Part shown: positions 9,055-27,907 of the stretch, piece after piece
How the letters are laid out: every line of letters begins with the position of its first letter
Numbering within the stretch: the first letter of the stretch is position 1
From: Blastopirellula sp. J2-11
GTDB lineage: Bacteria > Planctomycetota > Planctomycetia > Pirellulales > Pirellulaceae
Assembly: GCF_024584705.1 (NCBI RefSeq)
Contig: NZ_CP097384.1
Span: forward strand, 3,596,001 to 3,660,000
DNA: 64,000 nt
Direction of reading: 5' to 3'
Position numbers and translations under genes: made by a program
The notes under the pieces: model-generated
The model's database searches: none
What the model was told of the DNA's origin: nothing
Seen by the model: only the letters and a program-made list of their open reading frames with translations

Positions 9055-12000
9055 CTACTTTTTGTTTCCCCAACCGCCGCCGCCTGGTGTTCGGATCACG
9101 AGCACGTCGCCCCGTTCCAATTCAAAACTAGCGATCGCCGGTAGGCGAATTTCGGATCCGTCGGCGCGGCGCAGCAGGTTTTCCCCTACTTTGCCGGGCT
9201 CACCGCCCGCCAATCCATATGGTGGATAGTCGCCGCGGCGCTGCGTTAGCAGCGAACCAGTCAACGGTCGTAGAAACTCAATCTCGCGTTCGACTCCATC
9301 TCCTCCGCGATGCTCCCCTGCTCCGCCGCTGTCATGACGAATCGAGAATCGCCGAATTCGGGCCGGAAACCGCAGCTCGAAAACTTCCACATCGGTCATC
9401 CGCGTATTGGTCATGTGCGTATGCACCGCCGAAGCGCCGGCAGCTTGCGGCGTCGCTCCGGCGCCTCCGCAGATCGTTTCGTAATAACCGAACGTCGCGT
9501 CACCAAAGGTAAAATTGTTCATCGTTCCTTGGCTAGCCGCTGCAAGCTGCAAAGCTCCTAGCAGCACGTCGACCACGCGCTGAGAAGTTTCGACATTTCC
9601 CCCCGCGACGGCCGCACATTTCTCGGGCGTGCCGAGAAACGGCGGATTCAACAAGCAGTGCGGCAAACGAATCTCCACCGGTTCGAGCACTCCTTGATTC
9701 AGCGGGATCTCTTCGTTCAAGAGCGATCGTAAGCAGTACATCACTGCAGCGGTCACAATGGCGCGGTTCGCGTTCAAGTTGCCCGGCAACACCGGCCCGG
9801 TTCCGGCAAAATCAACCACCGCCTGAGAGCCGGTAATCTCAATCTCCACTGCAATCGGCGAACCATCATCGAGATGATCTTCAAATCGATGCCGCCCATC
9901 CGGCAAACGTGACAATGCCGCGCGGGTCTTGGTTGCGGCGGCGTTCTGGATATGCCTGGCGTACCGCTCAACCAATGTCAGGCCATACGTTGCAACCATT
10001 GCTTCTAAGTCGATTCGCCCATGCTGATTCGCCGCCAATTGCGCCGCGACGTCGGACAAATTATCTGGCACATTTCGCGACGGATATGTTCCCTTACGTA
10101 AGATTGCCTCGAAACCTTCCCAATCGGCGACGCCAGCATGCATCAAGCGAAAATTATCGATCAAGACTCCTTCGTCGGCCAAGGTCTTCGAGCCAGACGG
10201 CATCGAGCCGGCGGCGATCCCGCCGATCTCCGCATGATGAGCGCGACTTGCCGCGAAGAAACTTGGCCGCTCACTCGCTTCGCCCATATAGACCGGCGTA
10301 ATGACCGTTACGTCGGGCAAGTGTGAACCGCCGCGATACGGGTTATTGGTCACAAACGCATCCCCCGGCGCCATCTGCGGGTTGAAGGCGATCGTCGCTT
10401 TGACCGTTTCCCCCATCGCCCCCAAGTGAACGGGAATGTGAGGCGCGTTGGCGATCAGATCTCCGTCACCGGTAAAAATCGCGCAGCTGAAATCGAGCCG
10501 CTCTTTCACATTGACGCTGACCGACGTGTTTTGCAGCGCTACGCCCATCTGTTCAGCGATCGCAGCAAACTGGTTGTTGATGATCTCGAGCAATACCGGA
10601 TCGGCGACATCATCATCCGTCGGACGGGCGATCACATCGTCTTTCGCCACAGCATCCTCACTGCAGCGAATCAACAGCTCGCCGCGGCTCAACATTTCGG
10701 CCATCCACCCTGGATCAATTACCGTGGTGGCCAGCGACTCCGACACCAGCGCTGGCCCAGCGATCACGGCGCCGCAACGTAACTGATCTCGCTGAAAAAT
10801 CGGAGTCTTCGTATCGCGTCCCGCAAAGCGAACGTTCGCCCAGCTTGCTGGCTCCACTTGCTGGCGCTCGCCAGATTGGCTCGCTTGAAAGTCTCCACGA
10901 TCCTGGCCACTTGCTTCGACGCGTGCAGCGACCACTTCGATCGGTTGCTTCCGACGACAATAGCCGTATCGCTGCTGATGCGTCTGATGATAGCGTTCGT
11001 CCAAATCGGCCAACGGTCGTGCTGCGATAGATAAAGACGCTTCCAGCCCCTGATAGCGCAGTTCTACTTCCTCGCGACAGGTGATCCGCGATTCTGGATC
11101 CCCTTCGGCAGCGACTTGCTCAACGGCGTTCGCTTTCAACTCGGCAAAGGTGGCCTCGAGCAATGCTTCGCTCCGCTCGAGGAAGCGATAAATTCCGCGT
11201 GTGGCGTAGCGCGTGGTCACGGCAGCGCCAATTCCGACGGCGCTCAGAATCCCAGCATCGGGATGGGATAACAGGGTGGAAATTCCCAGCTGTTCGGCGA
11301 CGGCGCACGCATGCTGTCCCGCCGCACCGCCAAACGGAACGAGCACGTAGGCGCGAGGATCGTAACCTTTGGCGACCGAGATCGTCCGAATCGCTTTGGC
11401 GATGTTGGCGTTGGCGATCTGCAAGAATCCGGTCGCCAGTTCCTGCGTCGTTTTCTGTTGGCCAGTCGCCGCTTCAACTTTTTTCGCGATCTCCACCAGG
11501 CGCCGCTTCACCGCCGCTTCATCCAACCGAAACGGAAATTGCGCTCCTTGCAACTTGCCGAGCGCCAAGTTGACATCGGTCACGGTCAATGGACCACCGC
11601 ATCCATAACACGCAGGCCCCGGATCAGCGCCGGCGCTGGCCGGACCAACCACCAGCTTCACTCCATCGAAATCGCAGATTGATCCGCCGCCTGCGGCGAC
11701 CGTTTCGATCGCCATCATCGGTGCGACGATGCGAACTCCGGCTTTCTCGGTTTCAAACTGACGTTCAAACGCCCCGTCAAAGCGGGAAACGTCGGTGCTG
11801 GTCCCCCCCATGTCAAAGCCAATCGCACGGGCAAAGCCAGCTTGCTGCGCGACGGCCGCGTAACCGACTACGCCTCCAGCTGGCCCTGACAAGATGCTAT
11901 CTTTGCCCGAAAACTGCTCAGCAGCGATCAAGCCGCCGGCCGAAGTCAACAAGCTTAAACGGCTGCCGTCGCCCAACGCACGTTCAATGGCGGCGACATA

Positions 12001-15941: not shown

Positions 15942-17369
15942 CTATTTCAGGCTTGGTAATCGCAAATTTTGGAGACGATTGAGCATTGCGATCGTCATCT
16001 GAGCCATTTCTCGCAACATAGGCCGCTTGGCCACTTCGGAGTAGATCCGCTGCCGTAAGTCGACCGACTTTAGTTTGCGGGAATTGAGGATTTGGCGACG
16101 GACTTCCGCAAGCGGTTTGTCTGGTTCGACGGAAAGCGCCGATCTTTGCAACTCCGAAAACCAGCGTTCCGCACCGCTGCGGCGTGTTTCTTCCGTATCC
16201 GTTTGCACCAAGTATTCGTCGGCAAGAAATCCTGAAAAGGCTAGAAAGCGATTTCTCCGAGCTTGGGCGTCTTCCCTTCGGAATGCTGCTCTGATTTGAG
16301 TCGAAAGATCATCAGACTCCAGCGCTTCATATGCTATGCCTTTCCCCAATAGTGAACTTCTGCCGGCTAAAACTACGGGGAGATCTCGCGCCAAAGCGAC
16401 ATATTCCAAAGTGGTGCCGTAGCTCACGACGACATCCGCCCATTCCCAATAGGGAGTAATATCCCCAGTCCCAATGACCAGGTTTCTTTCTCCTCTCGTA
16501 TCGTACGAGGCGTAGTACGAACGCATATGCGGATGGGGTTTGTAGACCGTCGTTCCGTGGTGCTTGCGAGAAACCATGCATGCTAGTTGGTAACCCGATT
16601 CGTAGCCTGGCAAAGCTTGTTCTCGCTCCGGGTCACTTGCCGAAATCCCACAAACCGTATCAAAACATCCCAAGACGAGCACTTTGGGTTCCGACGGAAT
16701 CGCTTTGTCCTGTAAATATTCGATCGTCTCGTCAGAAACGACCTGTGGCCATCGATTGAAGTCCTGAGAAACAAACGCCTGGCGGACGGACTCGCCCGTT
16801 TTCTGAAACGTTTCGATTTTCGAGGGGGGACAAAGATCCTCCCAGGTTCGATCCACAAGCGATGTATGAACACCAGCGACTTTCGGGTCGATGTTGAAAG
16901 TCCCAGGCAACAATCCTCGTTCGAACGCGGAAACGGGGATTCCGAGTCGAGACGCCATTTGATGCATAATTCCAGTCGTCGGATCGGCAGGATTCCAAGA
17001 GACAAACACGCTGGGTTGCAACGAATGCAATAATTGCCAAGAGACGCTGGCAAGATTGCGAAGCAAGGGAAGGCAATCGGATTGCCCATGCGGCGCTGCA
17101 TCCACGGTTTTCAGTCGCTGAAGCCACATCTCTTGGTCCAGATAGGGCAGCGCCTGATCTGCTTGATCTTCTTGAAACCGATAAACTCGCTCCCAGTTTC
17201 TGACTCCACTGGGCATTCGAAGGATCGAGTCCGCCAATTCTGGGTAAGGAAACAGCGAGAACAAAACAAACTCGTAGCCGTGATCCGTAAGCACGCTTCG
17301 TACTACTTGAAGAAAACGGACTTCCTGCGGCTTTAACGGCGCCAGACAACTGATGACAATTCTGGGCAT
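15942..17369 (-). CDS. Glycosyltransferase-like protein with HP motif, tandem paralogue B
   Basis: A 475-residue cytoplasmic protein that starts MPRIVISCLAPL. Two features of GT-B capsule enzymes stand out: the basic HP motif in VYKPHPHMRSYY, and WADVVVSYGTTLEYVALA, which matches the ST/SS motif and its neighbouring glutamate. The pattern fits the broad Kps/PF05159 and bacterial sialyltransferase-like group, which use nucleotide-activated acidic sugars. It is clearly homologous to the next gene upstream over its whole length (shared GIPVSA.ERG, FKPHP, YGT.LEY, GKGIAYEAL). A longer upstream frame overlaps that neighbour by 160 bases and is rejected. Assigning it to a CMP-sialate donor is inference from the NeuA/NeuB genes beside it. 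Confidence 0.8.
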   Translation of the reverse strand: MPRIVISCLAPLKPQEVRFLQVVRSVLTDHGYEFVLFSLFPYPELADSILRMPSGVRNWERVYRFQEDQADQALPYLDQEMWLQRLKTVDAAPHGQSDCLPLLRNLASVSWQLLHSLQPSVFVSWNPADPTTGIMHQMASRLGIPVSAFERGLLPGTFNIDPKVAGVHTSLVDRTWEDLCPPSKIETFQKTGESVRQAFVSQDFNRWPQVVSDETIEYLQDKAIPSEPKVLVLGCFDTVCGISASDPEREQALPGYESGYQLACMVSRKHHGTTVYKPHPHMRSYYASYDTRGERNLVIGTGDITPYWEWADVVVSYGTTLEYVALARDLPVVLAGRSSLLGKGIAYEALESDDLSTQIRAAFRREDAQARRNRFLAFSGFLADEYLVQTDTEETRRSGAERWFSELQRSALSVEPDKPLAEVRRQILNSRKLKSVDLRQRIYSEVAKRPMLREMAQMTIAMLNRLQNLRLPSLK

Positions 17370-17521
17370 TGGAGCCGATCTGCCGCTTTTAGAAATGGAG
17401 TTGAAAAGGTTAACTGGTAAGCCGTCGGACGAACTGTTGGTGTAGGCGATCCACCATGTTGGGAGCAAAACGATGAATGCCTCGGACGATCGGACGAGCC
17501 GCAGCGAGACAATCCCCTTAG

Positions 17522-18982
17522 CTACGCTTGTTGCGGATTTTGCGCTACGCCTGCTCTTGTAAATGGTCTGGCGGCGATTTTCGCAACTCGCGAGAAAACG
17601 CCATTTGCAGATCGAACCGACTCTAACAGAACTGGGTGACGACCTAGCCACTGATAGATTGAATTGGTTAACTCGATCCAAAACAGTCGCCTCTGATCGA
17701 CGAACTCACTACGAACCTGCGAAAATTCGCGTGTAGGCTTTCTGTCTGCGACGCGATCTGCGAGTTGTTGACACCAACGCGTCGCCGCCGCTTCACGCAG
17801 GTCCTCATCTTTCAAGGGTAATAGGTATTCTTGCATGAGATAACCGCAAAAGCCTTCGAGTCGCCGTTTTCGATTCTCGAAATCATTTCGATTGATTGCT
17901 GCATCGATCGCGCTCGGCAACTCTTCGGAATAGAGCGCTTCGTACGCGATTCCCTTTCCATAGAGTGCGGACTTGCCCGAGAGGACAAGTGGGCGGTCGA
18001 GCGCCAGAGCGGCATACTCCAGAGAGGTGCCATAGCAGACAACCACATCCGCCCATCGAATCAGATCCTTGGCTGCTCCTTCACCAACAACGTAGAGCCT
18101 GTCTTCCCCGCTGCTGTCGAATGCGTCCTTTCGATTCCACATCTTTACTGGATGAGGTTTGAAAACGGTGATTCCTTGGTGGCTGCGACTAACTTGTTTC
18201 GCTAATTCAAAGCCAGACTCAAATCCCGGAAGTAGCGCCAAACGCTCTGGGTCGTGTGGGCTAAATCCACAGGCGATGTCATGTGCGCCTAGAACGAGAA
18301 CGCGAGGCCCCTTGCAATCCACAAGAGCAGGCGGGACACCTGCGTTTTCCAGCTTTTTCCAACGTGTAAACTCCGCTTCTTCGTAAGTGCTTTTTAAGAA
18401 GCTTTGGCCATATTGAATATAACTGACGTCGTCGAGCGCCTGAATTACTTCTTCAGAGGAATTCTCCACCATCGAATTGCGGATACCCCGGATTTTTTCA
18501 TCGAAATTTAGCGTCTCAGGAAACATCCCCCGCTCCATTGCCGAAACGGGAATTCCCATTTGAGATGCGACAGCACACAATACCCCGGTTGAAGGTATGA
18601 TGGGACTCCATCCTACGACAAGTCCTGGCTCCAAGGCTTCCAGCATCGCCTTGGATACGCCGGCCAAGATAGATAGAGTCTCTTCGTGGTTACCACTGCC
18701 ATCCAAGCATCCTGATGAATGCTTAACCCGTCGATGCCAGAGGGGAACATCAATGTTTTCGATACCTTCCTGATACTGGGAGGCAGGCACACGATAAACT
18801 TGCTCCCAACTCTTGTAATCACCCACGATCCGAATGGATGACTCCAAGAGCTTTGGGATCTTGAGGCCGGTCAGGAAGACCAATTCATGCCCCATTGCCC
18901 GGAGCTTCGATTGTGATCGCACAAAAAAGTCGACTTCTAGGTCATTGAATGGAGAAAGCAGGGTGACGACCACTCTCGACAT
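17522..18982 (-). CDS. Glycosyltransferase-like protein with HP motif, tandem paralogue A
   Basis: 486 residues, beginning MSRVVVTLLSPF. It has the same architecture as the downstream paralogue: an N-terminal Rossmann-like half, then GIPVSAMERGMF, a linker, VFKPHPVKM (HP motif) and WADVVVCYGTSLEYAALA (ST motif), and GKGIAYEAL. AAGGAAG lies 10 bases before the ATG. It sits 77 bases after the CMP-sialate synthetase gene, in the same direction. The pair may add successive or alternating residues to the exported glycan. Donor and acceptor cannot be read from sequence. Confidence 0.8.
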   Translation of the reverse strand: MSRVVVTLLSPFNDLEVDFFVRSQSKLRAMGHELVFLTGLKIPKLLESSIRIVGDYKSWEQVYRVPASQYQEGIENIDVPLWHRRVKHSSGCLDGSGNHEETLSILAGVSKAMLEALEPGLVVGWSPIIPSTGVLCAVASQMGIPVSAMERGMFPETLNFDEKIRGIRNSMVENSSEEVIQALDDVSYIQYGQSFLKSTYEEAEFTRWKKLENAGVPPALVDCKGPRVLVLGAHDIACGFSPHDPERLALLPGFESGFELAKQVSRSHQGITVFKPHPVKMWNRKDAFDSSGEDRLYVVGEGAAKDLIRWADVVVCYGTSLEYAALALDRPLVLSGKSALYGKGIAYEALYSEELPSAIDAAINRNDFENRKRRLEGFCGYLMQEYLLPLKDEDLREAAATRWCQQLADRVADRKPTREFSQVRSEFVDQRRLFWIELTNSIYQWLGRHPVLLESVRSANGVFSRVAKIAARPFTRAGVAQNPQQA

Positions 18983-19059: not shown

Positions 19060-19752
19060 TCACTCCAACAAATCGCTCATCGATTGCTTTTCTATCACCG
19101 TTTTTTGAAACAGCCATTCGGCAATCAAAAAGTCGAGTGGAGTATCGATATCGAGAGACTCTAAATGGCTTAGCTTTAACAGGTACGGATGGAGCCCCAG
19201 GTTGCTTTTATTCTTCACCATCATTTCGCGCGGCAAGATAGAAGCGGCAAAGGTCAGACGCGTGATGTCGGGCAAGTCTTGCGAACGTGGAATGCTCTGA
19301 TTGTCGTAGTTAAGCGGAACTCCATCCCGAAGCAAAAACTCTTTGACGTCAGCGACGGTGGTCAAGGAGTCATATCCATCAGGAAGATCTCGGTACAGAC
19401 GAATAGCGTGCTCGTAAGATGTGGTGGTGACCAAGGGGGAAGTCACGGTGGTATGAAGAATGTCGTCGCATTCAATTTCTCGAGCCATGTGGGCGTACAC
19501 TTCGCTCATGGGAATCGTGTCGGTAGCGTAATAAGGATCACGAGCGTGGACCTTGGCGCCAAGCGTTTTGGCAATCTCAAGCATCTCTGGATCATTCGAG
19601 CTGACGCACACCCCATCCAATCCCTGGACATTCAGCATCTGCCGAACGCGAACTTCCAGGAGACTGCTCCCGCAAAAGGGGCGCGTATTCTTGTGTGGAA
19701 TGCGAATCGATCCACTTCGTACGGGAATGACTGCGAAGAGAGTCCTAGACAT
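19060..19752 (-). CDS. CMP-sialate-type cytidylyltransferase (NeuA family)
   Basis: A 230-residue nucleotidyltransferase predicted to activate a nonulosonic acid with CTP. The N-terminal CTP-binding loop is VIPVRSGSIRIPHKN, close to the IPARGGSKGIPxKN of the family. VCVSSNDPEMLEIAKTLGAKV, RDPYYATDT and SLDIDTPLDF are also diagnostic. The middle of the loop (SGSIR) deviates from the usual GGSKG. It overlaps the NeuB-fusion gene by 8 bases, so the two are translationally coupled. Substrates could be Neu5Ac or a bacterial analogue such as legionaminic or pseudaminic acid. Confidence 0.87.
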   Translation of the reverse strand: MSRTLFAVIPVRSGSIRIPHKNTRPFCGSSLLEVRVRQMLNVQGLDGVCVSSNDPEMLEIAKTLGAKVHARDPYYATDTIPMSEVYAHMAREIECDDILHTTVTSPLVTTTSYEHAIRLYRDLPDGYDSLTTVADVKEFLLRDGVPLNYDNQSIPRSQDLPDITRLTFAASILPREMMVKNKSNLGLHPYLLKLSHLESLDIDTPLDFLIAEWLFQKTVIEKQSMSDLLE

Positions 19753-21292
19753 GGGATTTCGTCTTCAATGCTGGATATTTGTGATGTTCGCAGCTAAGAA
19801 CCCGCTTCTGGGAATCACCGAGCACTTCTCGAGCAAGACGAATATCACGAACATAGTTCGTGAATTCATCGGTTCTCAGGTCGACCGCTACTTTGTCAAA
19901 GTGGACCCAGTCGACGTCTCCTAGTTTCACATGCTTTTCGATCATTCTCGCACCATTGGCGACAGCCATCATCGAGGCGAGAGAACCGAGGTCGTGGCTA
20001 GAATAGCCGGAAAATATGCGTGGATCCTGCTTACTGAGTTCGCTGTATTCGTGGACGATCGAGATGTTGCATGATTCTCGGGGAGCGGGGTAAGCCGAGA
20101 CGCAATGAAGCAGATAGATCTCACTGTTTCTCCGGAAGGTATCGAGCACATACTCGACATACTCAGCCTCTGTCGCGCCTGTCGATACGACGACTGGGCC
20201 GTCATAGCATTCGGCAATCTGTGCATGGAATTCTTCGTGTTCCGAAATCGTCGACGGGATCTTAATTAAGCTTGGATTGAAGCGTTGAATCGCTTCGAAC
20301 GAGGCGAAGTCCAGCACGGAGCAAAACCAGCCGATCTGACAGCGGCGACAAGTCTCTTCCAGCAAATCCAAGAGTTCGTCATTGAGTTCCACCCCTCTTC
20401 GATAATCGCCAAGCGTAGAACCAAAAGGAGACCAGTACCGGCTTTTCAACTGTTCTGGGCTGTAGAAATTATCAACATCTCGCTTTTGCACTTTGACATA
20501 ATCTGCGCCGGCAGCCTTCGAGCGTTCGACTAACTCGACGAGACGACTTGCGGATCCCAGGTGGTTATTTGTCAATTCCGCGACGACAAGCACATGATGG
20601 GGATCTGTCGCCGGCGCCGTGTATCGACCAGGATAAAGCCGGTTCAGAAAGGCTCCTGGAGTCAAACTGCTGATGTCACGATGTCCGACGTGGATGAGTC
20701 TTAATTCGCTGCGGTCTTCAAATACACGCTGAAATTGGCGGAAATGATGCTCCTGAGCATGGACATTCACCTCTCGTTCATCGAGCGATGCGCCGGCAAA
20801 ATCGCGTTCGACTTTTGCGCTTAGCCCGCCTGAGCGTGTCGAAAAGTCGAGCCCCAATAGATAGACGTTTTGGGGGCGTCCGCGCAGTTGCGCAAGTTGC
20901 TGGCAAACTTTCAATGCGGTAAGCAGGACGAGAGGCTCATCCCACAACACCGGAACACGGAGGCGATGGACCGTCAATTCTTCCTGGTCGAGTTCAGCAG
21001 GAAGCGTCGGCAAGACCATGTGCGGTACATGGTCCGGCAAGGAACGCCCAGAAAGATAGAACTGACAGCCGAATCCAACCTCGGTGAGACTCTCTTTGAC
21101 CCAAGAAGCACTCAGGATCCCGATCTGCCCCGGCAGTATTTGCTCGGAATCGTTCAGGTTGATTGTAATGCCTGCATTCAGCGGCGCATCCTGCAACTCA
21201 TCAATGCTCGGTCCTTTACCAATGATAAAGATATCATCGCTGTCGAATGAGGAAGCGATATTTTCTAGTTGGTGGGAGAAATTCGCCAGCAT
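19745..21292 (-). CDS. NeuB-type nonulosonate synthase fused to a sialyltransferase-like domain
   Basis: A 515-residue bifunctional protein. Residues 234-515 are a NeuB synthase, condensing phosphoenolpyruvate with an N-acyl hexosamine: AELTNNHLGS, KIPSTISEHEEF, VVSTGATEAE, HCVSAYPAP, GYSSHDLG and IEKHVKLGD. No SAF domain follows. Residues 1-220 form a separate domain with FIIGKGPSIDEL at 22-33, TINLND, VYLLGLDF at 143-150 and a His-rich NVHAQEHHF. That order resembles GT42 sialyltransferases and the DUF115/MptE-like fold. The ATG used follows AGGGGAG at good spacing. An ATG 11 codons upstream is weaker. It overlaps the upstream phosphatase gene by 59 bases and neuA by 8. Confidence 0.85.
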   Translation of the reverse strand: MLANFSHQLENIASSFDSDDIFIIGKGPSIDELQDAPLNAGITINLNDSEQILPGQIGILSASWVKESLTEVGFGCQFYLSGRSLPDHVPHMVLPTLPAELDQEELTVHRLRVPVLWDEPLVLLTALKVCQQLAQLRGRPQNVYLLGLDFSTRSGGLSAKVERDFAGASLDEREVNVHAQEHHFRQFQRVFEDRSELRLIHVGHRDISSLTPGAFLNRLYPGRYTAPATDPHHVLVVAELTNNHLGSASRLVELVERSKAAGADYVKVQKRDVDNFYSPEQLKSRYWSPFGSTLGDYRRGVELNDELLDLLEETCRRCQIGWFCSVLDFASFEAIQRFNPSLIKIPSTISEHEEFHAQIAECYDGPVVVSTGATEAEYVEYVLDTFRRNSEIYLLHCVSAYPAPRESCNISIVHEYSELSKQDPRIFSGYSSHDLGSLASMMAVANGARMIEKHVKLGDVDWVHFDKVAVDLRTDEFTNYVRDIRLAREVLGDSQKRVLSCEHHKYPALKTKSHV

Positions 21293-22010
21293 AGGGCTCC
21301 CCTTCGACAAAAACCGATAAACCATGTTCCAGGGCTAAATTCAAGCCGGCAAGGATATCCCAGCTGTTGGCCCCTTTGGGATTCTCAAATGAGAAAAATG
21401 ACCCACGTATCACATTCAACATGTTATAGACGCAGCAACCGAGAACACGGTATTCGGCGCCGGTGACGACCTCCGTCAGAAGCTGCAATGGTATCGACGA
21501 AGAGTAACCTCGAATCCGAGATTCGAACTTAGGAATATCGTCGCCGGTACGAATCCATGAATTCATTTCTGGACAAGCCAGCATCGACGCTACATGCTTC
21601 CCGCGGGAGAAACATGCAATGGAAACTCCCCACTCCGGCAATCCGGCGGTAAAGTTTTCGGTTCCATCGATCGGATCCAAAACGATTGTCGCCATTTCAG
21701 CGGTCAACGGCTGCGAGTGCGCAAGCTCTTCAGATATCAGCCTGGTTTGGTCAGGAAGCGTCAAACGCATTTGATCCTGAACCAGATCCTGGACAAAGAG
21801 ATCACCGTCAGTGACGAAGCTGTCATCACTTTTTTTTTGTCGCCGATGTCGCAGAGCCAAGATCTCGGCGAGATTGCTCATAACCACATTCTGAACGCCA
21901 TCGAGAAAACGATTGGTGGATTCGACTACGCTCATGTCATTAACGGCGAATTCTCGCCTTCGCCCCTTAAATATTTCAGCATCGGCCCTCACATCGTAGA
22001 ACGATGACAT
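21234..22010 (-). CDS. Inositol-monophosphatase-family phosphatase
   Basis: A 258-residue protein of the IMPase/SuhB superfamily. The metal-site motifs are all visible: ISEELAHS (the E of the first site), DPIDGTENF and GANSWDILAGLNLALEHG near the C-terminus. These enzymes remove phosphate from a sugar or nucleotide phosphate with Mg2+. Inside a nonulosonate locus a dephosphorylation of a sugar phosphate intermediate is a natural guess, but the substrate is unknown. The frame extends 18 codons upstream to a TTG. The first ATG is used. Its end overlaps the NeuB-fusion gene. Confidence 0.85.
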   Translation of the reverse strand: MSSFYDVRADAEIFKGRRREFAVNDMSVVESTNRFLDGVQNVVMSNLAEILALRHRRQKKSDDSFVTDGDLFVQDLVQDQMRLTLPDQTRLISEELAHSQPLTAEMATIVLDPIDGTENFTAGLPEWGVSIACFSRGKHVASMLACPEMNSWIRTGDDIPKFESRIRGYSSSIPLQLLTEVVTGAEYRVLGCCVYNMLNVIRGSFFSFENPKGANSWDILAGLNLALEHGLSVFVEGEPYAGEFLPPTRKYRFLIRQR

Positions 22011-22227
22011 GGCGATCGTTGGGTGATGGTAACTTGCCGAATCAAGGGACGAAAGTCCTTCCAAGAAATCGCTACAAATCTTCGTGCAATATTTACCGAT
22101 TGCTAATACAAAGGAGTAAACGAGGCTTTGAGCAATCAGAGACCTGGCGATTCACCAAAGGAAGAACGCGCCTCCAATCCATCTCCTTCTCGAGAGTCCG
22201 CGTCGACCGATTCCACCCCGAATCGGT

Positions 22228-23058
22228 CTAGTTCCTCGATATCTCTCGATACTTCTCCAAAACTTCTCCGGGAGCGCCATCGTGGATAATTCGTCCATGA
22301 TCCAACAGGACTGCTCGCGTGCAATGTTCTTGGATCAGGTTTTCGCTGTGGCTGACAAAGAAGATCGTCTGCCCTTTGGCGACCGAGGCGTTCATGCGAG
22401 CAAAGCACTTCTCGCGAAATCGGGCGTCGCCAACCGCAAGGACTTCGTCGGCGACGAGCAGGTCGGGATCTAAGTGCGTCGCGACGGAGAAGGCCAACCT
22501 GGCTCTCATACCTGAGGAATATCGTCGGACTGGCATCTCGATGAATTTGCCGACATCCGAGAACTCGACAATCTGGTCATACTTCTGAATGACCTGGGCG
22601 TGCGTCATTCCCAATATCACGCCGTTCAGGAAGATATTTTCCTTTCCAGTCAGCATCGGGTTGAAGCCAGTCCCAACCTCCAGCAGGCAGGCCAGGTTGC
22701 CCCAAACAGAGATCTGGCCCTCTGTCGGAGTCGTAACTTGGGACAAGATCTTAAGGAACGTACTCTTGCCCGCTCCGTTGTGTCCGACGATTCCCAACAA
22801 TTCGCCGCGACGCACCTCAAGGTTGATGTCTTTCAGGGCCCATAACCAATTCTTCTCGTCCGCTTCTTGCTTCCTGCGCAGACGGTCAAGCGGCTGCCGG
22901 AGAGACTTCAGCATTCCCTTCGTAAAATCGGCCATGTTTTCATAAGGGCCAGACTGATCGAAGCGGAATCGCTTGCCGAGGCCCTCGACCTTGACGACGA
23001 GTTCGCGGTTGGCTGCCAGCGTTGACTGCGGTTTCGGATCAAAGGATATCGACGACAT
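22228..23058 (-). CDS. Polysaccharide ABC exporter ATPase (Wzt/KpsT/TagH type)
   Basis: A 276-residue ATPase that would drive export of a finished glycan across the inner membrane. Walker A is GHNGAGKST at 92-100, the signature is RRYSSGMRARLAF, and Walker B is LLVADEVLAVGD, all with the sequence style of polysaccharide exporters (NGVILGMTHAQ, WGNLACLLEVGTGF). It ends soon after the H-loop, so it lacks the C-terminal carbohydrate-binding domain of Wzt from O9a-type systems. The ATG overlaps the permease stop by 20 bases. Longer upstream starts lie inside the permease gene. Confidence 0.92.
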   Translation of the reverse strand: MSSISFDPKPQSTLAANRELVVKVEGLGKRFRFDQSGPYENMADFTKGMLKSLRQPLDRLRRKQEADEKNWLWALKDINLEVRRGELLGIVGHNGAGKSTFLKILSQVTTPTEGQISVWGNLACLLEVGTGFNPMLTGKENIFLNGVILGMTHAQVIQKYDQIVEFSDVGKFIEMPVRRYSSGMRARLAFSVATHLDPDLLVADEVLAVGDARFREKCFARMNASVAKGQTIFFVSHSENLIQEHCTRAVLLDHGRIIHDGAPGEVLEKYREISRN

Positions 23059-23935
23059 TGCGTTCCACTCTTCGGAAAACATAAGTTCCGGAGAAAAAAA
23101 GTAGAGTTGACGAAATGGTTGTGATCGCAAGCGCCGTCCAAGGAGCGGAGCCGTCACCAAATACCACCCACCGAAAGCCGCTGATCAGACCCGCGATCGG
23201 GTTCAGGTAATACAACCAAAGCCAATCTTTAGGAATGACATCGACGGGGTCATAAAACACCGGCGACAGGAAAAACCAGGCTTGAACAATAAATGGGACA
23301 ACCTGCTGAACATCGCGGTAGACCGCGGTCAGTGCGGATAACCAAAAGGTGATCGAAGTCGTCACCAGAATCATGATGACAACCAGAAGCGGTGCGAGTA
23401 ATACGTTGATCGAAGGTACGACTCCAAAGATCAGCATCAAAATCGCCAACAAGCCGATCCGGATCGTAAAATCGACCAGGTTCACCACAATGGGAGTCAG
23501 CGGCAATACCAATCGACAGAAGTAAATCTTCGAGATGATACTGGCGTTTGAGATAATCGAATCGGCGCCGCGCGAGATGGAGACGCTGACAAACTGCCAG
23601 ATGCTGAGCGCCAGGAATACGCTGACCGGGTACGGAATATCGCCTGAATGAAGCTCTTGGCCACGTCTGCCAAAAACCAGCGTGAAAATCACCATCATTC
23701 CCAGCGGCTGAAGAATAGCCCAAAGAACTCCAACCACGGTTTCCTTATAGCGAACCGACAGATCCCGCAATACCATGTGCCGCAGCACATGCCGATAGCG
23801 CCAAAGTTCCCACAGATTTAGCCTGTTGCCCGATCCATCCGACGTAATCACGAGAGTCGGTTCGGCGAAAGCAACGGTTCCTCTCGCTTCTGGTGAATCC
23901 GCAATGCTACTGACTTCTGGAATAGTGCTTGTCAT
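23039..23935 (-). CDS. Polysaccharide ABC exporter permease (Wzm/KpsM/TagG type)
   Basis: A 298-residue ABC-2 permease with about six transmembrane helices. A cytoplasmic N-terminus ends in LRDLSVRYKETVVGVLWAILQP, the coupling-helix motif of the family, and FLSPVFYDP and YYLNPIAGLISGFR mark the second half. It partners the overlapping ATPase. The frame extends to a TTG four codons upstream, and the first ATG is used. It is the first gene of the core glycan operon. The 460 bases upstream are non-coding. Confidence 0.92.
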   Translation of the reverse strand: MTSTIPEVSSIADSPEARGTVAFAEPTLVITSDGSGNRLNLWELWRYRHVLRHMVLRDLSVRYKETVVGVLWAILQPLGMMVIFTLVFGRRGQELHSGDIPYPVSVFLALSIWQFVSVSISRGADSIISNASIISKIYFCRLVLPLTPIVVNLVDFTIRIGLLAILMLIFGVVPSINVLLAPLLVVIMILVTTSITFWLSALTAVYRDVQQVVPFIVQAWFFLSPVFYDPVDVIPKDWLWLYYLNPIAGLISGFRWVVFGDGSAPWTALAITTISSTLLFFSGTYVFRRVERNVVDIL

Positions 23936-24399
23936 TCGTTGATGCAAAGGCGTTTATTTCAGGACAACAGGGAAGAAGCAAAAGACGTTCGCTTCTGTCG
24001 ATCACGAACAAAAAACAACCGGGTGAAGATCTGCAAACATTCCCCGAAAAAAGCGGCGTGAAGTCTTAACAAAAAACTCACACTTGCGATTTCTGGTGAG
24101 TCCTACTGAGACTGTTTCGGGATGCGGCATGGGCAGTACGGTAACAAAAATTCTATGGCTCGCTTGTCGCGCGGTCAACGGACAGGAACACCGTCTCATC
24201 CTCATCTCATGAAAATCTGTTACGTATCTGCGTACCGGAAAATTATCACATTCTCTTCTTTCAAAATTCATCATTGGGAAGTACGCGAAGCGAGTTCTCG
24301 AATCAGCGATTCAACATCGCGCCCCCGACTGCATGAAGCCGCTCCCTAGAACTTGCGTCGTAAAAATGAGGGCATTTCCAATGCAAACCTAACCAGCTT
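23936..24399. other. Upstream region of the glycan operon, no gene seen
   Basis: This 464-base gap separates the permease gene from the stop of the COG5610-type gene. Open frames on both strands are short and lack any recognisable content. It presumably holds the operon promoter. No clear box pair stood out. Confidence 0.5.
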
Positions 24400-26496
24400 T
24401 CACCCAGAGACGACCTTTCCCAGAAGCAGTCGCTCGATGAATCGAATTACCGGCAACGGCAATTTTTGCATCAGATATCGCTTGATCGGAAGGGGTACAA
24501 GCAAGTCGATCCGCCCTCTCGCAATAAGGAACAACGAATGGAGACCACCGGCCGTATTTCCCGACAGCACCAACCTTGCGGCGCGACCGCTGCGGATTCC
24601 GGCGCCGTTCGGCCAAATCGTAATCTCATTGCGCGTTCTTTGATTGCCGAACAAAAAGGCCACCGCATTTCTTAACGAAATTATTGGTCCAATCTCGCCG
24701 ACGGTTCGGCTTCCAGAGTCCGGTGAGAACGGAAACCGCCCGATGCATTCCGCGAACTCTTTGTCCAACCAAGGTGACTCAAGCAGATTGGTAAATTGAC
24801 GAAGGCTTTCTATCGAGTCCGTGCGAAAACTCTCCTGTTGGAACAATTCCCCATTTTCGCGAACGGAGTCGAGACAACCTTGCACGAGGTCATCATAGCC
24901 CCAAGCAGTGATCGCGAGTCCCTGCTCGTCTAAGACGGGAATCACGTTCCCCTGCTCGTCCTCAGAGTATTCGTTCAAACTTCCGTGAGGCGCCGTCGCG
25001 AGAATTTCTACCATCGGCGCCCATTTGCCGATCCAAGCGTCATTGAAGTGCGCTTGATCCGGAGGTCCGCAAAAGGCCTGCATGGGAGACGCTGAAACCC
25101 GCTTTCCCATGGAAGCCAGGCAAATATAAAAACCATTTATGGGGCGATCTTCGCCAAGTATCCTCGCCAGTGCGGCTTGGCTACTCCCTTTCCAACCCAC
25201 ATCGACAATGCCGGTTCGCTGCGTACTCAACATTCCTTTGTCCTGAAGGTAACGAAGCAGCAAATCCCGCTGCTTTGCCGCCGCCGCAAGCGACTTTTCC
25301 GCCATCTCTTGTCGTAGCAAGACCCGCTTCAGCGCCGCTTGTCGCTTGGAAGTAAGAGGGGCGAGACGCCAAGCGTCGGCTCTCGACATTTCGACCACGA
25401 AGGGATCAGCCGAAGGCAGATCGCTCGAGGTCAGACCGAGACGGGTCATCACTCCCTCGACGGTCGTTTCCTTCTCCGTTAATAGCGCCCAGTTCAGCGT
25501 CGACTCATAGGTCTCGCTGGTTGTCGCGGCAAGTCTCCAGACAGCACGTGAAGAATAGACGTATTCAATCGAGATACCCTGACCAAGTCCAGCTTCCTGT
25601 AGTTTTTCGGCGACTCGCGAGAGCAGATAACCATCGCGCGCCAAGAATCCGAGGGTACCAATACCGGCCGCTTCGCTTTCACGAAGCACCCAAGCTACAT
25701 ACCCGGCGAAGATCGGCGCCGCGATACTATATCCGATCTGTGCCTGAAGCGACTTACCCTGCAGTCGGTATTGACGCGCTCTTCCGGAAAGAATTTGGCA
25801 ACGAACCGAGCGTTCAACGGCGGGCTTCTCCCAACTACGTAACACGCCTTCGGAACGAACCGTTCCCCTGGCTCCGATTCGCCGAGGAACCATCACGTCG
25901 CTTTGAGGATGATCACCGCTATGAGACAGTCTGGAAAGAGGCGCCTTTTCAACTTCGCTGACATGATGAAAAAGTGCGCCGCTCCCCTTGGTCTTCAAGT
26001 GCTCGGATGAGACGTAAAGCTTGCAGCGACTTGCGATATCCGGACAACATTGATGCAGCAAGGATCGAATAAAGTCCGCGGAATGATACATGTCGGAAAT
26101 AAGAACCACGCGCATTCCTTGCTCAAGCAGCAACCGGATCTCGGCGATCGTCGACATGATTGGAATGGAAACATCTAACTCGGTTTTCAATTCCATCGCC
26201 TTCATGCGCTCGCAGCGATCCAAGGTCAGACCGAGCGAAATCGCGAGTTGCTCATAGATCGCGTCGAACGTCGTTTCGCCATGGGACGCATTCCGCCGAG
26301 ACATTCGCTCTGCGCGGATCCGTTGCTCAACAAACTGGTCTGCAAGATCGCTGTACTCTGGCTCCACCTTCAATCGTTCTGCAATCATGCAGAATACGCC
26401 CGCCGGCGTTCCCACGCTTCGCGTAATCAAAGTATCGAAAACGTCATACGAATGGAGTTGGTCAGAGCTATCCACGTTGCTATTGCAAAATCTCAT
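24400..26496 (-). CDS. HAD hydrolase-containing protein (COG5610 type)
   Basis: A 698-residue protein. Residues about 1-220 are a HAD hydrolase: motif I SYDVFDTL at 16-23 with both aspartates, motif II VVLISDMY, a lysine region SSEHLKTKG, and motif III GDHPQSDV. The rest (about 250-698) is the less well defined domain seen after such HADs in polysaccharide loci, with FLARDGYLLSRVAEKL and GIVDVGWKGSSQ. It is probably cytoplasmic and may dephosphorylate a glycan intermediate, but the role of this family is not settled. Upstream in-frame ATGs at 26526 and 26625 exist. The one chosen places the HAD motif at the usual distance from the N-terminus, though no start has a convincing ribosome-binding site. 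Confidence 0.8.
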   Translation of the reverse strand: MRFCNSNVDSSDQLHSYDVFDTLITRSVGTPAGVFCMIAERLKVEPEYSDLADQFVEQRIRAERMSRRNASHGETTFDAIYEQLAISLGLTLDRCERMKAMELKTELDVSIPIMSTIAEIRLLLEQGMRVVLISDMYHSADFIRSLLHQCCPDIASRCKLYVSSEHLKTKGSGALFHHVSEVEKAPLSRLSHSGDHPQSDVMVPRRIGARGTVRSEGVLRSWEKPAVERSVRCQILSGRARQYRLQGKSLQAQIGYSIAAPIFAGYVAWVLRESEAAGIGTLGFLARDGYLLSRVAEKLQEAGLGQGISIEYVYSSRAVWRLAATTSETYESTLNWALLTEKETTVEGVMTRLGLTSSDLPSADPFVVEMSRADAWRLAPLTSKRQAALKRVLLRQEMAEKSLAAAAKQRDLLLRYLQDKGMLSTQRTGIVDVGWKGSSQAALARILGEDRPINGFYICLASMGKRVSASPMQAFCGPPDQAHFNDAWIGKWAPMVEILATAPHGSLNEYSEDEQGNVIPVLDEQGLAITAWGYDDLVQGCLDSVRENGELFQQESFRTDSIESLRQFTNLLESPWLDKEFAECIGRFPFSPDSGSRTVGEIGPIISLRNAVAFLFGNQRTRNEITIWPNGAGIRSGRAARLVLSGNTAGGLHSLFLIARGRIDLLVPLPIKRYLMQKLPLPVIRFIERLLLGKVVSG

Positions 26497-26821
26497 GAAG
26501 CCAAGAGGAAGTATCCCGGCTCGCATCCGCCAAACAGACGCAGAGCCACGCCGCCAACAGTCTTCCAGATCACGCCATCTTTTCGAAGGGGATCCATGCG
26601 ACGCCAGGTTTCTTGGGAAGCGCATTGATCCGCAGCTTCCACCCTGCCAATCAAAAGTAATCTTGGGGTCATAAGATTACGGCGGCGAACTGTTAAGTTT
26701 TCTTGAAGAAACCAAGCAATTCCGGCCCAACGCCAAGTCCCCAGCCTGCTTAACTCACAATTGGCAAACGCAGAACAAAGTCATCCCGTACGGACAGACT
26801 CGCTTTGTGCCGCGTGCGTAT

Positions 26822-27907
26822 TCACTGGGCGTCAGTCGACCGAGCATCCGCACGCAACCCAAGACGCTCGCGTCGATATCCTTGGGCCGCAATTCGCTGG
26901 AGCCAAATTTCGTTGGCCAAATACCACTGAATGGTTTTCTCCAATCCAGTTTCGAACGTCTCTTGCGGGCTCCACTGAAGTTCAGAGCTTATCTTGGATG
27001 CGTCAATTGCGTATCGTCGATCATGCCCGGGTCGATCCTGGACAAACGTGATTAACTTTTCACAAGGCCGATGAGCAAGGTCAGGGCAAAGCTGGTCCAT
27101 CGCCGCACAGACCGCTTGGACGATTTCTAGATTGGTTCGCTCGCAGTTCCCGCCGATGTGATAGACCTCGCCGGGTCTCCCTAGCTGCAGCACGCGGCGC
27201 AGGGCGCGGCAGTGATCTTCAACAAACAGCCAATCCCGCACATTCTGTCCGTCGCCATAGATCGGCAACGGCTTTCCCTCCAACGCATTCAAGATCATCA
27301 CCGGAATCAACTTCTCGGGAAACTGACGCGGGCCATAATTGTTCGAGCAGTTGGTTGTTAAGGTCGGCATTGCATAGGTACGAAAATACGCGCGAACCAA
27401 ATGATCCGCCGAGGCTTTTGACGCCGAATAAGGAGAGTTGGGAGCATACGGACTTGTTTCTGTGAACAGCCCGGTTTTACCGAGCGAACCATACACCTCG
27501 TCGGTGGAAACCTGCAAGAAGCGAAATTCAGCGGCCCGCTCGGCGCCAAGTTCGCACCAATACCGACGAGCCGCTTCCAATAGGGTGAACGTGCCAAGGA
27601 CGTTGGTCGCGACAAACTCGTCCGGTCCATCGATCGAACGATCGACATGCGATTCGGCCGCCAGGTTCAATAGGGCGCTCGGCTGATATTCGGTTAGTAA
27701 CCGGGTCACCAAGTTGGCGTCGCCAATATCTCCTTCGATCAGAATGTGTCGCGCATCCTCTTCCAACTCAGCCAAAGAGTCGCGATTGCCTGCGTAGGTC
27801 AGCTTGTCAAGATTAATGACCGTCGCGTTATCCTGCCGCACCAATTGCCGCACCAGGCAACTACCGATAAATCCTGCTCCGCCGGTAACGAGAACGGTCT
27901 TACTCAT
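26822..27907 (-). CDS. rfbB: dTDP-glucose 4,6-dehydratase
   Basis: A 361-residue short-chain dehydrogenase-family enzyme that makes dTDP-4-keto-6-deoxyglucose, the first committed intermediate to dTDP-rhamnose. The NAD-binding TGGAGFIGS is at 8-16, followed by LAAESHVDRSI, STDEVYGSL, the catalytic SPYSASKAS (YxxxK), and NCSNNYGPRQFPEKLIP. GDGQNVRDWLFVEDH is the usual C-terminal substrate-site stretch. No rfbA, C or D gene is in the window. It is preceded by a GT4 gene 45 bases upstream in the same direction, so the two may form a unit separate from the NeuA/B operon. Confidence 0.95.
   Translation of the reverse strand: MSKTVLVTGGAGFIGSCLVRQLVRQDNATVINLDKLTYAGNRDSLAELEEDARHILIEGDIGDANLVTRLLTEYQPSALLNLAAESHVDRSIDGPDEFVATNVLGTFTLLEAARRYWCELGAERAAEFRFLQVSTDEVYGSLGKTGLFTETSPYAPNSPYSASKASADHLVRAYFRTYAMPTLTTNCSNNYGPRQFPEKLIPVMILNALEGKPLPIYGDGQNVRDWLFVEDHCRALRRVLQLGRPGEVYHIGGNCERTNLEIVQAVCAAMDQLCPDLAHRPCEKLITFVQDRPGHDRRYAIDASKISSELQWSPQETFETGLEKTIQWYLANEIWLQRIAAQGYRRERLGLRADARSTDAQ

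Follow-up and report, generated by a model that had tools for sequence, protein, structure and literature searches.

A NeuB synthase with an N-terminal domain of predicted Maf/Cst-II/MptE fold in a conserved, probable nonulosonate gene cassette

Making a nonulosonate and using it are normally separate steps carried out by separate proteins. On the side of use, passages of PMC11339370 describe the central Maf_flag10 domain of the Maf flagellin nonulosonate transferases (PF01973, PDB 5mu5) as resembling the GT42 sialyltransferase Cst-II, and, according to passages of PMC3426422, the Maf domain was formerly called a thiamine-pyrophosphokinase domain. On the side of synthesis, a Leptospira NeuB carries a C-terminal phosphatase domain, and the passages of PMC3438082 that describe it infer a phosphorylated route. 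Here we describe a gene of Blastopirellula sp. J2-11, located in a 64,000-nucleotide stretch of contig NZ_CP097384.1 (positions 3,596,001 to 3,660,000, hereafter the window), which encodes a NeuB synthase preceded by a 230-residue N-terminal domain (N-domain). Like the Leptospira protein, it joins NeuB to an accessory domain, but the phosphatase is encoded separately here and the fused domain is N-terminal with a predicted transferase/pyrophosphokinase fold. The N-domain most likely binds a sugar activated with cytidine monophosphate (CMP), and we assign a probability of roughly 0.4 to its transferring the sugar of a CMP-nonulosonate. The architecture of the fusion and its gene cassette are well supported, and the chemistry of the N-domain is a prediction.

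A sequence-only reading of the window had proposed that an open reading frame (ORF) at positions 19745–21292 combines a NeuB synthase with a sialyltransferase-like domain. The position was borne out; the strand, which that reading did not give, is minus, with the plus strand of the same interval interrupted by stops. A further in-frame ATG lies upstream at 21325, but the aligned relatives begin near 21292. The synthase assignment holds as well: PF03102 (NeuB) matches residues 254–496 with an E-value of 2e-45 and a score of 155.6 bits against a cut-off of 22.1, and it matches all nine fusion proteins analyzed below. In a search of the PDB, the profile of the fusion family matched solved synthases over profile positions 234–502, with pseudaminic acid synthase (PseI, 8h2c) being the best (E 1.3e-33), and the window protein itself matched 8h2c with an E-value of 7.5e-24. 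The fusions nevertheless differ from the known NeuB/PseI synthases in that (i) none of the nine carries a SAF domain in Pfam scans (of four other NeuB proteins used as controls, L043 and L044 were positive and L041 and L042 negative), (ii) the window protein scores far below the NCBIfam equivalog cut-offs (130.1 versus 399.65 bits for NeuB_NnaB and 120.1 versus 340.25 bits for PseI), and (iii) the nine NeuB parts separate from seven other NeuB rows in a tree with 100/100 support.

The aligned set of nine comprises the window protein and relatives from a metagenome-assembled genome (MAG) labelled Akkermansia, from Bacteroidota and from E. coli and Enterobacter capsule loci. Each of the nine is encoded by one uninterrupted open frame, which rules out an artefact of gene calling; the fusions form a real, rare family. 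Five of the loci lie outside Enterobacteriaceae (the window, L003 from the MAG, L004 from Fulvivirga marina, L039 and L040), and the E. coli and Enterobacter loci that we read in annotation are L005, L006, L008 and L009. A scan of genome contigs yielded two full-length relatives, those of L003 and L004, with 55% and 51% identity, respectively. The label of the L003 MAG, Akkermansia muciniphila, may be wrong, as its genome is given as 3.8 Mb, which is large for that species. RefSeq names such fusions 'N-acetylneuraminate synthase family protein', so the suspicion that similar fusions already sit in databases was correct. The remark of the sequence-only reading that it knew of no described enzyme of this kind agrees with the papers listed in our literature searches, none of which describes, in its title, abstract or searched passages, a fusion of NeuB to a transferase fold.

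Searches with the N-domain retrieved only the window's own genome from samples of its order (1/396) and phylum (1/343), which overlap, and only the MAG itself from the phylum of the latter (1/194). Among genomes of Fulvivirga's phylum, there were five matches in 395, namely three fusions, including that of Fulvivirga, and two weak matches to stand-alone MptE-like proteins. The confinement of the gene to the window's own genome in the order and phylum samples and the scatter of its relatives point to rarity and horizontal spread. In complete E. coli genomes, the fusion gene is present in 15 of 5,426 (12 chromosomal and three plasmid-borne cases). A tblastn search of plasmids returned 79 records, in three of which (two E. 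coli, one Enterobacter) at least 80% of the protein is covered. One of these three, L007 (NZ_CP141089.1), which is 4.94 Mb long and entered as a plasmid in PLSDB, is evidently an E. coli chromosome. Viral contigs gave no confirmed case of the N-domain: the full protein aligns with eight viral loci, but from residue 212 onward only, the match in two phage records is confined to the NeuB part, and PHROGs contained nothing with an E-value below 0.08.

That the N-domain has an unrelated role and is tethered to NeuB for co-expression only is a reading that we find very improbable. It is at odds with an architecture that is kept in nine proteins. Furthermore, among the plasmid matches listed (the best 15 of 79), the three with 40–42% identity are fusions and the remaining 12 match the NeuB part at 27.6–31.8%, so that no unfused NeuB of comparable similarity was seen there.

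Pfam scanning of the first 230 residues gave nothing significant (MptE-like, E 0.11), and PF06002 (CST-I, GT42) produced no row at E ≤ 1 for the window or the nine fusions. Profile–profile comparison with hhalign, however, linked the N-domain over residues ~6–191 to a set of three MptE-like sequences, all of which exceed the PF01973 cut-off, with a probability of 96.6% (E 6e-10), and to a set of eight, consisting of these three plus five tblastn relatives from viral contigs, with a probability of 95.8% (E 7.6e-9). As controls, two profiles taken from these loci but unrelated to the domain scored 0.33% and 0.16%. By this measure, the N-domain can be placed in the MptE-like/Maf_flag10 superfamily. 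The MptE-like profile in turn reached Cst-II in the PDB with an E-value of 2.3e-06 and GT42 in hhalign at 92.5%, the latter over one motif. The N-domain profile had eight PDB matches up to an E-value of 10, and the first seven are Cst-II chains with two collinear motifs and non-significant E-values of 0.17–0.37. A search for the GT42 family in Bacteroidota (0/118) was uninformative, the control genomes all being silent as well.

A structure model of the N-domain (pLDDT 67.6, pTM 0.74, medium confidence) was compared to solved structures with VIA-align. The top five matches, with Z scores of 9.7–10.6 over 119–195 residues, were Maf (10.6), Cst-I (10.3), Cst-II (9.9), MptE (8sd5, 9.8) and thiamine pyrophosphokinase (9.7). 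They were followed by the cell division regulator SteA (9.3 and 9.0), GT29 (8.1–8.7) and further thiamine pyrophosphokinases (7.0–9.4), after which Z fell to 5.3. An earlier full-length model, built from three rows with no MptE-like rows among them (pLDDT 54) and left out of fold matching, was poor but arranges the main elements in an identical sequence as far as helix 181–191. The N-domain is thus predicted to have the Maf/Cst-II/MptE fold. The sequence-only reading, which had guessed at GT42 or DUF115/MptE-like proteins, anticipated both the profile link and the structural matches, and an unrelated fold did not appear in the profile comparison and structure prediction that it had called for. 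The N-domain shares its predicted fold with the Maf transferases, and its profile is similar to those of MptE-like proteins that stand alone in polysaccharide loci; it differs from Maf in scoring below the Pfam cut-off, in having its own set of invariant residues, in being fused to a synthase and in residing in polysaccharide rather than flagellar loci.

The motifs GKGPSI (residues 25–30), TINLND (43–48) and VYLLGLDF (143–150) are present in the order in which they had been pointed out. In the N-domain, GxGPS precedes GxDF as it does in Cst-I and Cst-II, with lysine replacing the asparagine of GNGPS, and N47, as judged by eye, appears to occupy the place of Cst-II Asn31. The residues invariant in all nine fusions are I21, GKGP 25–28, I44, N47-D48-S49-E50, W64, Y79, P98, A126, K128, V143-Y144, G147, D149-F150, E181, H201-V202-G203 and S208. 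With GKGP, N47-D48-S49-E50, G147 and D149-F150 among them, the pattern goes beyond chance. An HxxxHH cluster, which the sequence-only reading listed together with the three motifs, does exist (H178, H182, H183), but only E181 in it is invariant; its histidines are not conserved, and we rejected it as a catalytic signature. The ratio of nonsynonymous to synonymous substitution rates (dN/dS) of the N-domain in two E. coli/Enterobacter pairs is 0.023 (at a dS of 1.2, itself high) and 0.071 (dS 0.54), and that of the NeuB part in the same pairs is 0.038 and 0.009; the other four pairs are saturated at silent sites in the N-domain. The low values indicate that the N-domain is under purifying selection.

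Several of our results weigh against a transferase. (i) The window domain scores 12.8 bits with PF01973 against a cut-off of 34.6, that of L024 scores 12.7 and that of L025 gives no match, one of the nine full proteins matches at E ≤ 1, and the same model finds nothing in the window's own genome. (ii) The N-domain aligns with GT42 in hhalign at 44% (E 2.3e-4) and over the first motif only. (iii) The fold match is partly circular because seven of the ten rows in the alignment behind the model are an MptE-like protein and its tblastn relatives. (iv) Foldseek returned 918 PDB matches at E ≤ 10 and none at E ≤ 0.001. (v) MptE and the thiamine pyrophosphokinases equal the transferases in Z, and SteA is among the matches, so the fold cannot separate a transferase from a pyrophosphokinase or a regulator. 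(vi) In the nine fusions, no conserved histidine stands at the place of the catalytic His188 of Cst-II and no conserved tyrosine at that of Tyr156, with the places matched by eye. (vii) The N-domain need not be the sole transferase, because the five loci outside Enterobacteriaceae carry other candidates: stand-alone MptE-like proteins (L003, L040), a protein with a GNGPS motif and no Pfam match (L039), a GT29 protein (L004) and a pair of ORFs with a KPHP motif (the window).

The loss of the GT42 catalytic residues, the presence of SteA and the faster evolution of the N-domain (25 of 195 columns are invariant versus 91 of 273 in the NeuB domain) would also suit a non-catalytic part, either a sensor of product or nucleotide or a structural cap standing in for the missing SAF domain. 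The SAF domain of NeuB completes the active site of the partner subunit, and all nine fusions are without it. Passages of PMC7591256 similarly describe active-site residues contributed by the antifreeze-like domain of N. meningitidis NeuB. Against this stand L041 and L042, which are SAF-less NeuB proteins without any N-domain, so that a replacement for SAF is not required. Moreover, the invariant residues of the N-domain concentrate in loops that bind nucleotide in this fold family. We regard a sensor or cap as possible but on the unlikely side.

The gene trio computed for these loci consists of the fusion, an inositol-monophosphatase (IMPase)-family gene and a cytidylyltransferase gene. The IMPase-family gene is directly upstream of the fusion in all nine loci, overlapping it in eight and lying one base apart in L024, and its acidic motifs EE, DPIDGTENF and WD are invariant in 9/9. 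Among the 15 E. coli matches listed, an IMPase annotation overlaps the match in 14 cases and adjoins it in the other. The cytidylyltransferase gene is likewise present in 9/9 loci: Pfam assigns it in the window, L003, L039 and L040, and blastp to the window gene identifies it in L004, L005, L006, L008 and L009. In L041 and L042, each NeuB-family gene is followed by one for a hydrolase of the haloacid dehalogenase (HAD) type; from these two examples, SAF-less synthases may in general be paired with phosphatases.

We propose that the locus supplies a polysaccharide with a nonulosonic acid in CMP-activated form, and that the neighbouring ATP-binding cassette (ABC) transporter exports this polysaccharide. 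The NeuB domain would join phosphoenolpyruvate to a (phospho)sugar, giving a phosphorylated nonulosonate, the IMPase-type enzyme would strip the phosphate, and the cytidylyltransferase would form the CMP-sugar. The N-domain would most likely bind the CMP-nonulosonate and transfer the sugar; it would then be a divergent transferase whose active site has been rebuilt. In this scheme we infer which sugar is the acceptor, the removal of the phosphate and, above all, the transfer. Since the IMPase-type neighbour would remove a phosphate, NeuB probably accepts a phosphorylated sugar.

The genome of the window (one contig, 6.43 Mb, 99.6% complete) was searched for a supply of such an acceptor at E ≤ 0.001. 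NeuB has a single match, the fusion itself, and Epimerase_2 (the family of NeuC, WecB and LegG), NanE and PseG have none, with AGE-type epimerases not searched. The searches for NeuB, Epimerase_2, NanE and PseG gave matches in 9, 11, 8 and 5 of 14 control genomes, respectively. Within the families searched, the routes through N-acetylmannosamine (ManNAc), ManNAc-6-phosphate, legionaminic acid and pseudaminic acid are thus without visible supply, and the simplest acceptor would therefore be an abundant sugar phosphate such as mannose-6-phosphate, which would give 9-phosphate of ketodeoxynonulosonic acid (Kdn-9-phosphate). The route from mannose-6-phosphate to Kdn-9-phosphate is described for Bacteroides and a haptophyte in passages of PMC6200933. 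The cassette is perhaps a phosphatase-dependent CMP-nonulosonate route of the Kdn type.

A phosphatase next to the fusion in all nine loci, and Z scores of MptE and thiamine pyrophosphokinase that tie with those of the transferases, could instead point to a kinase or pyrophosphokinase that uses ATP to phosphorylate the acceptor sugar ahead of condensation. This reading, which we hold to be improbable, has to contend with (i) the lack of matches in the window genome to the ManNAc- or ManNAc-6-phosphate-forming families searched, (ii) common sugar phosphates that require no additional kinase, (iii) the eight PDB profile matches, none of which is a solved kinase, and (iv) the acidic Mg-binding motif of thiamine pyrophosphokinases, which is not apparent. 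It has precedents in the Leptospira NeuB–phosphatase fusion and the mammalian epimerase–kinase fusion (passages of PMC3438082). If true, a single operon would, with the IMPase, encode kinase, synthase, phosphatase and CMP activation in the manner of animals. That a sialyltransferase-fold domain turned sugar kinase or pyrophosphokinase primes the NeuB acceptor, and that such a complete animal-like phosphorylated route has travelled as one cassette among distantly related bacteria and reached the capsule loci of E. coli, is quite improbable.

The window fusion belongs to a polysaccharide gene cluster that also encodes an ABC-2 transporter, an RmlB-like protein and glycosyltransferases (Table 1). 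Within this cluster, a 741-residue protein (24400–26625, minus strand) has no Pfam match at E ≤ 1, its start resembling HAD-type proteins by eye. The KPHP ORF pair (15942–18982) reaches no Pfam or NCBIfam cut-off, and the pair likely encodes unassigned glycosyltransferases. Proteins with a TagB domain, one of them with HP motifs, are proposed nonulosonate transferases in passages of PMC7439481. A hypothetical E. coli protein beside the cassette in L005 was compared with the window KPHP protein and showed no resemblance; nor did any ORF of the studied loci match it in all-against-all blastp. The L004 candidate (10992–11717) contains a GT29 (sialyltransferase) domain (E 3.3e-17) in a bacterial locus, two genes downstream of the cytidylyltransferase.

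Table 1. Coordinates of the fusion gene, its domains and motifs, and neighbouring genes in the window.
Feature	Position	Strand	Basis or remark
Fusion coding sequence, 515 amino acids + stop; N-terminal domain of predicted Maf/GT42/MptE fold + NeuB synthase	19745..21292	minus	
N-terminal domain core, residues 18–212	20657..21241	minus	hhalign, model and structural matches, dN/dS
GKGPS loop, residues 25–29, counterpart of Cst-II GNGPS	21206..21220	minus	GKGP invariant 9/9; aligned to Cst-II
N47-D48-S49-E50 motif	21143..21154	minus	invariant 9/9
G147-x-D149-F150, counterpart of Cst-II GIDF	20843..20854	minus	G147, D149-F150 invariant 9/9; aligned to Cst-II
HxxxHH cluster, H178/H182/H183; E181 its only invariant residue	20744..20761	minus	alignment
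H201-V202-G203, invariant	20684..20692	minus	alignment
NeuB synthase domain, residues 234–506, no SAF/antifreeze domain behind	19775..20593	minus	Pfam, profile comparison
IMPase-family gene; 59-base overlap with fusion start; true start uncertain	21234..22064	minus	PF00459, E 2.3e-21
NeuA/PseF-like CMP-sugar cytidylyltransferase; 8-base overlap with fusion stop	19060..19752	minus	PF02348, E 4.5e-17; below NCBIfam cut-offs
Candidate glycosyltransferase with KPHP motif, paralogue of 15942–17681 ORF	17522..18982	minus	36% identity
Other glycosyltransferase-like ORF of the KPHP pair; similarity from ~residue 105, true start probably later than listed	15942..17681	minus	
ABC transporter ATPase	22228..23160	minus	PF00005; 33–35% identity to ATPases of E. 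coli/Enterobacter capsule loci
ABC-2 type transporter permease	23039..23947	minus	PF01061
dTDP-glucose 4,6-dehydratase-like (RmlB)	26822..27907	minus	55–59% identity to RfbB of E. coli/Enterobacter loci

The fusions of L005, L006, L008 and L009 lie within capsule clusters that contain ABC-export genes and rfbBDAC, and the stretches of these loci that were examined contain no annotated UDP-GlcNAc 2-epimerase. In L005 (31.5 kb), the E. coli capsule cluster is carried by an IncX1/IncY-typed plasmid and has IS26, IS66 and further transposase genes on its flanks. A 2023 survey of E. coli group 3 capsule clusters (PMC10433991) includes CMP-sialic acid (CMP-N-acetylneuraminic acid) and 'myco-inositol' among predicted precursors, and the words NeuB, neuraminate and cytidylyl do not occur in its main text. 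Provided that its clusters include the loci described here, the inositol prediction may really reflect the phosphatase of the cassette. The K3 antigen, which contains a 4-deoxy-2-hexulosonic acid, was also considered for these E. coli loci; the product of a NeuB should be 3-deoxy.

A fused pair of this kind would represent a natural coupling of the making and use of a nonulosonate, or else a new use of the sialyltransferase fold. The cassette also occurs in capsule loci of E. coli, with the fusion gene in 15 of 5,426 complete genomes, and thus has a bearing on the identity of the acidic sugar in these capsules.

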